DNA from: Gemmatimonadota bacterium
GTDB taxonomy: Bacteria; 4572-55; J002
Reading direction: 5' to 3'
Length of the DNA stretch: 6,291 nucleotides
NCBI GenBank assembly: GCA_003697105.1
Contig: RFFQ01000063.1
Location: 1-6,291, forward strand
Below are positions 2,271 to 6,145 of the stretch, in pieces. Position 1 is the stretch's first letter. Each line of letters begins with the position of its first letter. The notes under the pieces are model-generated. The model worked only from the letters and a program-made list of their open reading frames with translations. It did no database searches and was not told where the DNA came from. The position numbers and the translations under genes were made by a program.

Positions 2271-3260
2271 TCAAAGCCCCAACTGCTGTTGCTCGTAAAC
2301 CATTACATCGTTAAGAATATCATCTAAGGTGTACTGGGGTTGCCACCCCAGGAGGTTCTGGATACGCGATGTATCCGGTACACGACGTGCCATATCTTCA
2401 AATCCGGGTGCATACGCTTTTGAATAAGGGATATGGATAATTTCAGAGTGAGTCTGGGTGATGTCTTTGATTCGAGCCGCCAATTCATTGATCGAAACTT
2501 CTTCCGTGCTACCAATATTATAAACATACCCGGGAGCTTCTGGATGTTCCGCCAAGCCTATAATAGCTTGAATAACATCTTTGACATGCCCAAAACAGCG
2601 GCGCTGAGTACCATCCCCATATACCGTGATCGGTTCACCTTTTAACGCTTGTTGCATAAAGCGGGGAATAACCATTCCATATTGACCTCGTTGCCGTGGA
2701 CCAACCGTATTAAACAAACGGAAAAGCACCACATCTAAGCCAAATTCATCCAGATACGCTAAACCAAGAAATTCATCTACCATTTTGCTGGCGGCGTATG
2801 CCCACCGGTGTTTGTCTGTGGCACCTAAAAGGACATCATCCGTTTCGTTAAACGGAATTCGATATCCTTTGCCATAAACCTCTGAGGTACTCGCGATTAA
2901 CACCCGACAACCATATCGCAAAGCAGACTTCAAAACCGATTCCGTACCCATAATATTTGTTTCGATAGTGTGCACCGGATGTTCTACGATCAGTTGCACA
3001 CCGACTGCCGCTGCCAGATGAACCACAATATCGGCTTGAGATACTAGGCGGTCCATGACAATCGAATCCATAATAGTCGCGCGGGCAAAATGAAAATTGG
3101 GATGCGATAGTAAAGGGGCAATATTTTCCACCCGTCCTGTAGAAAGGTCATCAATAACCGCGACTCGCTTACCCTTCTTAATCAAGGCTTCGGCTAGGTA
3201 AGAACCCACAAAGCCCGCACCGCCCGTGATCAAATAAGATTCAAATGTAGATTGTGCCAT
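2271..3260 (-). CDS. NAD-dependent nucleotide-sugar epimerase/decarboxylase (extended SDR), UXS/ArnA-like
   Basis: A cytoplasmic extended short-chain dehydrogenase/reductase acting on a nucleotide sugar. Visible are the Rossmann loop TGGAGFVG (12-19), acidic NAD-ribose residues VIDDLSTG (35-42), HLAAAVG (81-87), STSEVYG (124-130), the YAASK catalytic Tyr155/Lys159 pair, RLFNTVGPRQ (181-190), VYGDGTQRR (213-221) and the C-terminal RRVPDTSRIQNLLGWQP (292-308). The Thr-Ser-Glu run at 125-127 and the RxPD segment near 293 resemble UDP-glucuronate decarboxylases (UDP-xylose synthase, the ArnA decarboxylase domain). This hints at UDP-glucuronate chemistry. However, SDR epimerases of other UDP- or GDP-sugars share most of these motifs, and databases often label such proteins UDP-glucose 4-epimerase. 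Length is 329 residues, normal for the class. ATG 3260-3258 has a recognisable ribosome site (GAAAGGG), and the gene starts 17 bases after the sulfate-activation gene. Family is certain; substrate and reaction are inferred. Confidence 0.9.
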   Translation of the reverse strand: MAQSTFESYLITGGAGFVGSYLAEALIKKGKRVAVIDDLSTGRVENIAPLLSHPNFHFARATIMDSIVMDRLVSQADIVVHLAAAVGVQLIVEHPVHTIETNIMGTESVLKSALRYGCRVLIASTSEVYGKGYRIPFNETDDVLLGATDKHRWAYAASKMVDEFLGLAYLDEFGLDVVLFRLFNTVGPRQRGQYGMVIPRFMQQALKGEPITVYGDGTQRRCFGHVKDVIQAIIGLAEHPEAPGYVYNIGSTEEVSINELAARIKDITQTHSEIIHIPYSKAYAPGFEDMARRVPDTSRIQNLLGWQPQYTLDDILNDVMVYEQQQLGL

Positions 3261-3277: not shown

Positions 3278-5143
3278 CTAGCCACGAAGAACCTGTTGTG
3301 TTTTCAAATACTCCAGCAAGGTCTGCACGGATTCTTCTAAAGTCAATTTACCCGTATCAATAACCAATTCTGGCGCCTCCGGTTCTTCATACGGCGCGGA
3401 AATTCCCGTAAACTCTTTGATGACCCCTTCACGAGCTTTTTTATATAACCCTTTCGGGTCACGGGCTTCGCATACATCTAAATCGGCTTTTACGAATACT
3501 TCAATAAAATCACCTTTTTCTAAGATACGACGTACCTGATCCCGATCTTTACGGTATGGTGAAATAAACGCCGTCAGAACAATATTACCGGCATCAGCAA
3601 ATAATTTAGCGACTTCACCAATCCGGCGGATATTCTCTTCCCGGTCTTCAGGAGAAAAGCCCAAATCCCGATTGAGACCGTGCCGGATATTATCTCCATC
3701 CAGTACATAAGTTTGGCAACCCATATCAAACAGAACGCCTTGTAATGCGGTTGCTAGGGTTGATTTTCCGGAACCGGACAAACCTGTCAGCCAAATCACC
3801 ACCCCCCTGTGATTGTTGCGCCGTTCCCGGTCATGCTTGGAAATACCGGTTTCATGCCACGTAATATTGGTGCTTTTGGTGGCGTTGTGTTCGGCATAAA
3901 ATCGGCGTAATACGTCGGCAACCGGCTTCCGCATGATACGCTCGTCAATTTCTTCCCCATTACGGAGTTTTTGACGCAAAACCTTCCCGGCGATAGAAAC
4001 CGTTTTATACCCTTTATCAGCGTAATCTTCAATAAGGCGCACACAGCCCAGTTCTTCAAAATAGGCGGCAAAACCCACCTTGACCGGCTTAATTTGCAAG
4101 TCTCCGTTGAGGTGATCAAACTTTTCATGGGCATCAAAATCTCCCCATGCGGGGGTACCATCATCAAAGGGGGCATCCGCATGTTTTCGCCCGATGATAA
4201 TATCTGTAAAACCGTAATTTTGACGATAAATAGCGTGCATAATCGCCTCTTTCGGTCCGGCATAAAACATTTTTACATCCAAACCTATCAACAAGAGCTG
4301 ATCATGCAGGGTATATCCTTTTTCTGCCCACAACTCGTTATCCAGATCACCTTCGCCTAACATTTGGCTTTCAAGAAGCACTTCATAGGTTTCCATCCGT
4401 ACATCCGCCGGAACATCATCCGATTTTGTTGCCCCTACCAATGGATTCAGCACGGCACCGGTAAAATATCCTTCGCGGGTGAGTTTCTCCATCGCATAGA
4501 CCATGGCATATTCATGGGCACGATGAAGCGCATTGCGGGTCTGAAACGCCACAATGCGGTCCCATCCACGACGGGCAAACAATTGGCGTGTTTCCAGCGG
4601 TGTCAACATATCTTTACGATGCGCCATATAGCCAACTTCTGGAAACGCCCAAATTTTACCGCCTAACAGATAATCCCGCGGGTCATCGTTGACAATGCGA
4701 GGTCCGGGATGATCTGTGCGCTCCGTACCATACACCGACCGGTTATAGCGAACTTTATCAAATTTATAAATATCGGAAATTTCCAAGAGACCAACAATCT
4801 TCTGTTGCTCATTTCTGACGAGAACCATCTCACCGGTCTCGTAAGTCTCCGCATCTGCTTGGCTGACTGGAAAAGCAATTGGAATCGTCCAGGCATATTT
4901 TTTACCATGACGTTCGATGGTTTCGGTATCGAGCACATGATAAAATTCAGCTTCGCTCATCGGACCTTCTAACGGAGACAACCCCCCATCTGCCATGCGA
5001 TAAAACATGGAAAGGTCGGCATCACTAATGGAATAGGATTTATAATTATCCGCGTGATGGGTATAATAATCTCGGTCTAACTCGGGTAAAATACGTGTCT
5101 TAATTTGATCTTGCCCATGAGGGCGGGGAATAACATGACTCAT
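3278..5143 (-). CDS. sat-cysC: Bifunctional sulfate adenylyltransferase / adenylylsulfate kinase (ATP sulfurylase-APS kinase fusion)
   Basis: This 621-residue cytoplasmic enzyme should turn sulfate and ATP into APS and then phosphorylate APS to PAPS, the universal sulfate donor. Residues 1-170 form the N-terminal PUA-like part, with the start motif RPHG (7-10) and [10 protein letters not shown] (53-62) typical of homomeric ATP sulfurylase. The catalytic part carries [11 protein letters not shown] (201-211, the HxxH ATP-binding motif), [14 protein letters not shown] (232-245) and IIGRKHAD (316-323), then [17 protein letters not shown] (383-399). After a linker (about 418-446) comes APS kinase: P-loop GLSGSGKST (454-462), [26 protein letters not shown] (482-507), FISPYR (526-531) and [12 protein letters not shown] (562-573). 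Domain order matches the Aquifex-type fusion and is the reverse of animal PAPS synthetase; CysD/CysN are not involved. Two active-site motifs differ from the textbook forms (Ala for Pro at 205; GRKHAD for GRDHAG). Both domains look complete. Being in a polysaccharide operon, it more likely serves sulfation than cysteine synthesis, but this is inference. Confidence 0.96.
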
Positions 5144-5173: not shown

Positions 5174-6145
5174 TTAAATAGTTTTGATTTCTTTTGCCCA
5201 GTCCCGATGTTCCTGATACCATTGGACGAGCCTTGCCACCCCTTCTTCATACATGGTTTGAGGTGACCAGTTTAGCATACGTTTCGCTTTGGAAATATCC
5301 GCCCAACTCGCTTTCACATCTGCCGGGTGAGCCGGTTTATATGCTAACAGGGCTTTTTTTCCGGTTAGGTCTTCGATCAGATGAATCATATCAATCAATA
5401 CCGCCGGTTTATCCGAACCCAAATTAAATACCTCATATCCGACATGTTTCAGACCGGCAATGGTGCCCCGGGCAATATCTTCGACATACGTGAAATCACG
5501 CGATTGTAATCCATCACCATAAACCACAACTGGGCGTTCTTCACAAATCCATTGGGTGAACCGGAAGAGACTCATATCCGGTCTTCCCGCGGGACCGTAA
5601 ACGGTGAAATAGCGAAAAATGGTGACATCGATTCCGCATAAATGATGGTATGAATAGCATAAGGCTTCCGCCGCTTTCTTGGAAGCCGCATAAGGAGAGA
5701 GCGGGCGACTCGTCTCGCCATCTTCAGGAGACGGCATTTGATTATGCCCGCCGTATAAGCTAGAGGTGGATGCGAGGATAAATTTACGAACACCATGCGT
5801 TTTGCACAGCTCTAGTAAATTCAGGGTGCCGGTGGTGTTCGTATCAAAATAGACCCACGGATTTTCAACCGAAGGGCGCACACCAGCACGTGCCGCGAGA
5901 TTGATAACGGCATCAAACGTCTTAAAGTCAAGCTGGGCGAATGCAGACCGATCACAAATATCAAATTGATGAAATTGAAAGTTCGAATAAGGCTCTAACT
6001 GAGACAAACGCCACTGTTTTAAGCGAATATCATACGCATCATTAATATTATCAACACCAACCACATGATGACCGTCTTCCAGCAACAACTCCGCAACTTT
6101 GGAGGCAATAAAACCTGCAACTCCAGTAACTAAATATGTGGGCAT
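5174..6145 (-). CDS. NAD-dependent nucleotide-sugar epimerase, UDP-glucuronate 4-epimerase-like (extended SDR)
   Basis: The first gene of the block, 323 residues, encodes a cytoplasmic extended SDR. The probable reaction is C4 epimerisation of UDP-glucuronate to UDP-galacturonate, or a closely related conversion. Support comes from VDNINDAYDIRLKQWRL (31-47), which matches the DNxNDYYDxxLK block of UDP-glucuronate 4-epimerases, AARAGVRPSVENP (84-96), STSSLYG (126-132), the YAASK pair Tyr152/Lys156, FRYFTVYGPAGRPDM (177-191), VYGDGLQSRDFTYVEDIARG (208-227) and the C-terminal PAHPADVKASWADISKAKRML (271-291). The nucleotide loop reads TGVAGFIAS (7-15), so the third glycine of GxxGxxG is Ala14. 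The usual GPWGRPDM of characterised glucuronate epimerases is GPAGRPDM here. Both changes look like a recurrent subfamily rather than decay, but they weaken substrate assignment. ATG 6145 is chosen because the Rossmann strand begins at residue 3. No clear Shine-Dalgarno is seen, and the stop lies 30 bases before the next start. Confidence 0.91.
   Translation of the reverse strand: MPTYLVTGVAGFIASKVAELLLEDGHHVVGVDNINDAYDIRLKQWRLSQLEPYSNFQFHQFDICDRSAFAQLDFKTFDAVINLAARAGVRPSVENPWVYFDTNTTGTLNLLELCKTHGVRKFILASTSSLYGGHNQMPSPEDGETSRPLSPYAASKKAAEALCYSYHHLCGIDVTIFRYFTVYGPAGRPDMSLFRFTQWICEERPVVVYGDGLQSRDFTYVEDIARGTIAGLKHVGYEVFNLGSDKPAVLIDMIHLIEDLTGKKALLAYKPAHPADVKASWADISKAKRMLNWSPQTMYEEGVARLVQWYQEHRDWAKEIKTI

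Follow-up and report, generated by a model that had tools for sequence, protein, structure and literature searches.

A fused ATP sulfurylase-APS kinase in a Wzm/Wzt polysaccharide operon of a Gemmatimonadota bacterium, a likely source of PAPS for sulfation rather than for assimilation

Sulfated capsules that are exported by ABC systems and encoded by clusters with their own PAPS genes have been described in Vibrio sp. KMM 8419 (PMC11641403) and Cobetia marina KMM 1449 (PMC11766843). In the Cobetia cluster, cysN/cysC, cysD, cysQ and a sulfate permease gene lie between kpsETMD and kpsSC (PMC11766843). The stretch of DNA analysed here (the window, 6291 bases) resembles both systems in that rml genes, an ABC exporter and PAPS-forming genes occur together in a polysaccharide cluster. 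The Vibrio and Cobetia clusters contain their own sulfotransferases, and their capsules have been chemically shown to be sulfated. The machinery differs, because PAPS formation in Vibrio and Cobetia relies on cysD/cysN/cysC (second copies in Vibrio) combined with Kps-type export, while the window carries a fused ATP sulfurylase (Sat)-APS kinase as the only copy in its genome, a Wzm/Wzt exporter and no sulfotransferase linked on its contig. Fused sat/cysC genes are also found in polysaccharide loci of Rhodobacterales plasmids (pTB2, pROLI127, Pontibrevibacter unnamed3 and Paracoccus p242883), and in pTB2 and p242883 they lie near rml genes as in the window; these fusions are only about 33% identical to the window enzyme, and, unlike in the window, no Wzm/Wzt pair is annotated in the stretches examined. 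On two Roseobacter plasmids, a protein of 636-638 aa with no Pfam match is encoded directly after the fused sat/cysC (L087, 16814-18724; L088, 13756-15672) and is a candidate sulfation partner. No papers turned up in a literature search that combined sulfated O-antigens with candidate phyla. Given the Vibrio, Cobetia and Rhodobacterales precedents, this kind of locus has already been described and the window is a further member; the preliminary description of the window, which called ABC-exported sulfated polysaccharides little described, somewhat overstated the case in view of the two published capsules. What is unusual here is that the fused enzyme is the sole sulfate-activation gene of a genome in which no sulfate-reduction genes were detected.

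The window is an entire contig (C130) of a draft assembly of 4.18 Mb in 199 contigs (96.85% complete, 0.66% contaminated), which allowed the idea about PAPS use to be tested genome-wide. All six genes lie on the minus strand. The first operon gene visible encodes a short-chain dehydrogenase/reductase (SDR) nucleotide-sugar epimerase, probably UDP-glucuronate 4-epimerase-like (5174-6145; Pfam Epimerase/GDP_Man_Dehyd), and is followed by the fusion gene (3278-5143), a second SDR gene resembling UDP-glucuronate decarboxylase (UDP-xylose synthase; 2271-3260), a Wzm-type ABC-2 permease gene for polysaccharide export (1416-2261; PF01061, ABC2_membrane, 60.5 bits; weak NF050109/NF050053 Wzm/KpsM matches), rmlA for glucose-1-phosphate thymidylyltransferase (547-1416; TIGR01207, 424.9 bits against a cut-off of 360.65) and the N-terminal 184 aa of a Wzt-type ABC ATPase cut by the contig end (3-554; PF00005, 68.5 bits). 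The truncated Wzt scores 133.8 bits with NF050108, below the cut-off of that model. Intergenic gaps of 30 bases (first SDR/fusion), 17 bases (fusion/second SDR) and 9 bases (second SDR/wzm) are followed by overlaps of 1 and 8 bases, the rmlA ATG at 1416 sharing one base with the wzm stop codon, and same-strand genes at such spacing fit a single operon. No ORF lies in the 146 bases between the start codon of the first SDR gene and the right contig end, which may therefore be where the operon starts; at the left end the operon runs off the contig inside wzt. The GC content of the fusion gene equals that of its neighbours, and promoter and terminator scans of the window gave nothing clearly above shuffled sequences. 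The coordinates and the 30- and 17-base gaps given earlier match our ORF calls exactly, as does the placement of the fusion between two SDR genes with the exporter next to them; the gene order had, however, left out rmlA between wzm and wzt. We also agree that the 6.3-kb contig holds no sulfotransferase gene.

The likely chemistry of the exported polymer can be approached through the neighbouring sugar genes. The closest solved chains to the SDR at 2271-3260 are those of UDP-glucuronate decarboxylase 1 (4gll, 2b69; 183 bits), and those closest to the SDR at 5174-6145 include 5u4q, 6zl6 and MoeE5 (6kv9), of which we take 6zl6 and MoeE5 to be UDP-GlcA 4-epimerases. Neither SDR reached an NCBIfam cut-off. 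Together with RmlA, the two SDRs suggest a polymer that may contain a uronic acid or a pentose as well as dTDP-derived sugars.

The fusion gene is an intact ORF of 621 aa with an ATG start and no internal stop, in which PUA_2 (PF14306, 110 bits), ATP-sulfurylase (PF01747, 202 bits) and APS_kinase (PF01583, 245 bits) follow one another in a single reading frame, all above their cut-offs, so that the claim of a complete ATP sulfurylase-APS kinase fusion holds. The sulfurylase part extends over residues 1 to about 418 and the kinase part from about 440 to 619; the HxxH and GRxHA motifs of the former and the P-loop of the latter are present. The bifunctional SAT/APS kinase of Aquifex aeolicus (2gks) has the same domain order and aligns over residues 35-617 (308 bits), but belongs to another sulfurylase subfamily, with TRNP and GRDHASP where the window enzyme has TRNA and GRKHADAP. 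GRKHADAP characterizes the subfamily to which the sulfurylase half of the window enzyme and its uncultured relatives belong, and most relatives with a fused or clustered gene also have TRNA. With 404.1 bits, the fusion misses the NCBIfam equivalog NF004040 (PRK05537; cut-off 669), and the subfamily motif differences may explain such missed NCBIfam cut-offs. By these comparisons the fusion belongs to a divergent subfamily and was not assigned to NF004040, and it is predicted from its sequence to be the single PAPS synthase of the genome.

At 61-68% identity, the best full-length relatives are encoded in genomes of BMS3Bbin03, Latescibacterota, Bacteroidales and Omnitrophota and in bins without a classification. 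A tree built from 25 sulfurylase domains separates, with weak support (75/70), the fused forms and those clustered with an APS kinase from the stand-alone forms found in Planctomycetota, Myxococcota and other groups. Local HMM and phmmer searches around the relatives' fused or clustered sat/APS kinase genes recovered CysQ, an SLC13-like (CitMHS/Na_sulph_symp) permease and further APS kinases, with a sulfotransferase beside them once (L009) and cysH in one of 11 relatives (L007). The cassettes closest by sequence, from Latescibacterota, Neomarinimicrobiota, KSB1 and BMS3Bbin03 (L008-L016, L062; 61-68% identical where they match), are likewise fused to or clustered with an APS kinase; they often carry CysQ, the SLC13-like permease or an additional APS kinase, whereas the window gene stands alone among sugar-nucleotide and export genes. 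In L009, the full Sat-APS kinase fusion comes directly after a gene (9782-10501) that joins an APS kinase domain to a DUF2061 membrane domain, and L011 (649-1377) probably has the same arrangement, judging by similarity. At the genome level, PF13469 sulfotransferases were present in 10 of the 12 genomes searched, and PF01507, the family of PAPS reductase, had no match in five of the 11 genomes of relatives. One other genome of the phylum examined, of the same class (G001), has cysD-cysN-cysC-cysQ, no second PF01507 gene and three PF13469 matches; a PAPS supply with no detected PAPS reductase is thus seen again in this class, there built on another type of enzyme. A sulfotransferase domain in G001 is part of an NRPS-like protein of 2787 aa (L082, contig C99, 5659-6306; ORF 1339-9702).

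Sulfate activation in the host genome is confined to the fusion gene, which is the only match of the APS kinase profile and, because a search with the whole fusion returned no second match, also the only sulfurylase match; a check for a second sulfate-activation set, proposed earlier, therefore found none. The sulfate-reduction side was searched with PF01507, which takes in both PAPS reductase (CysH) and CysD, and PF01077 (NIR_SIR), which takes in assimilatory sulfite reductase and DsrAB. PF01507 has no match in the host genome, while the same profile matches all 14 control genomes; PF01077 has none either, of the assimilatory or the DsrAB type, and matches 11 of the 14 controls. The lack of cysH, cysI and cysD first noticed near the fusion thus extends to the whole genome, of which about 3% is missing, enough to hide one cysHI cluster. 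A TIGR01331 search of the host genome revealed no clear CysQ; two IMPase-family genes, 24-35% identical to the CysQ of relatives, scored 104 and 83 bits where the model's cut-off is 228.8.

Extending the sulfotransferase search from the window to the genome, as the preliminary description had proposed, revealed nine sulfotransferase-like ORFs, all on contigs other than C130, with PF00685 matching at six places and PF13469 at further ones. Eight of the nine were counted as lying in glycan loci. Two are on C126 (L065), with three glycosyltransferases, an FkbM methyltransferase, NeuB and a cytidylyltransferase, and one is on C127 (L064), with NeuB, UDP-GlcNAc 2-epimerase-type, PglD-type and DegT genes; this mixing of NeuB, cytidylyltransferase and 2-epimerase genes with sulfotransferases suggests that sulfated nonulosonate glycans may be made. 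C176 has two among glycosyltransferases. C49 has two (one weak, 27.4 bits) with GT2, WbqC and an STT3/AglB-like oligosaccharyltransferase; this run (L067, covering 27000-46999 of C49; 7790-14707; AglB_L1, 50.6 bits) adjoins two type IV pilin-like genes, and a sulfated N-glycan on the pilins is a possible product. Reading of the sequence places the remaining two beside a flippase-like ORF (C165) and among cell-shape genes (C89). Sulfotransferase families also hold enzymes that act on lipids and proteins.

Attempts to extend the window past its contig ends were unsuccessful. Neither end of C130 overlapped with C125-C129, part of C131 or 20 further contig stretches, the set against which the left end was compared, and a DNA search of the whole genome with the right end of C130 found no overlap; these end comparisons yielded neither a continuation of the operon beyond wzt nor a sulfotransferase contig joined to C130. 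Searching with Wzt_C for the rest of wzt recovered just one other exporter, a complete one on C54, where a Wzm/Wzt pair with a Wzt_C domain is accompanied by two glycosyltransferase-like genes (L081, 4781-8869). Counted with the window pair, this gives at least two ABC polysaccharide exporters in the genome. The 3' ends of contigs C127, C128 and C129 of the host genome (G000) share about 99 identical bases, an assembly branch at a repeat.

The combination of a single APS kinase, no PF01507 or PF01077 match and nine sulfotransferase-like genes makes it likely that the PAPS supply is dedicated to sulfation and not to assimilation. Ordinary assimilation, in which PAPS would be reduced by CysH and sulfite reductase for cysteine synthesis, has in its favour that Sat and APS kinase are its standard start, that cysH adjoins the fusion in the relative L007 and that a Priestia plasmid carries sat-cysC with cysH; however, it was rejected because both reductase profiles are without a match in the host genome, where sulfotransferase-like genes are numerous, and we regard it as very improbable. 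The preliminary description had held that a locus or genome without sulfotransferases, or a sole activation gene next to cysH/cysI, would favour assimilation; sulfotransferases are present in the genome, and the fusion is the sole activation gene, yet cysH and cysI were not found. These genome-level absences would say nothing about the owner of the operon if C130 had been misbinned, as could be suspected of a short contig (6.3 kb) with no marker gene and a tetranucleotide correlation with the bin of 0.59, towards the lower limit of what the bin itself shows and similar to that of the foreign locus L013. Its correlation and GC content nevertheless fall within the values of the other contigs in the bin (correlations of 0.53-0.84), the correlation exceeds that of nearly all foreign loci (mostly <0.45), and contamination of the bin is low (0.66%), so that misbinning is improbable, if somewhat less so than assimilation.

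A further question is which glycans receive the sulfate. PAPS is diffusible, all nine sulfotransferase-like genes are on other contigs and the relatives' gene occurs in varied contexts that are not always polysaccharide loci, all of which would agree with PAPS serving sulfotransferases elsewhere (the C126/C127 nonulosonate glycans, the C49 oligosaccharyltransferase locus, or lipids and proteins), with an incidental operon position and an unsulfated exported polymer. We consider this unlikely, although clearly less so than misbinning, because the fusion is tightly packed between nucleotide-sugar genes with a GC content like theirs, and because the rest of the operon, with the expected glycosyltransferases and modifiers, is off the contig, so that the missing sulfotransferase says little. 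We think it probable that the PAPS synthase does not feed reduction but sulfotransferases on surface glycans, with the polymer of the window operon as the likeliest main acceptor, given the position of the fusion among SDR genes of UDP-uronate type, rmlA and the genes of a Wzm/Wzt exporter. The fusion would convert sulfate and ATP to APS, and then APS and ATP to PAPS, which would not be reduced to sulfite in this host and would instead be the donor for cytosolic sulfotransferases acting on surface glycans, mainly the polymer of this operon and also those of the other glycan loci. The earlier proposal of a dedicated PAPS supply is thus strongly supported at the genome level, whereas for the polymer of this exporter the argument comes from operon position, by which sulfation is our best guess. 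A broader scenario is more tentative and rather doubtful as a whole, namely that the lineage abandoned sulfate reduction and keeps sulfate activation, through the single PAPS synthase encoded in the Wzm/Wzt operon, solely for sulfating several separate surface glycans; among these would be glycans with nonulosonates and a glycan that the AglB-like oligosaccharyltransferase encoded next to the type IV pilin-like genes transfers.

If the probable reading is correct, this lineage, whose phylum is sparsely sampled, would make sulfated surface polymers and activate sulfate for nothing else, and bacterial polysaccharide sulfation would extend beyond the few cases that have been worked out. The makers of sulfated glycans in the EPS of granular sludge are poorly known (PMC10483923). 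A PAPS synthase without reductases, together with many sulfotransferases, would then be a genomic sign by which sources of sulfated glycans could be recognized.
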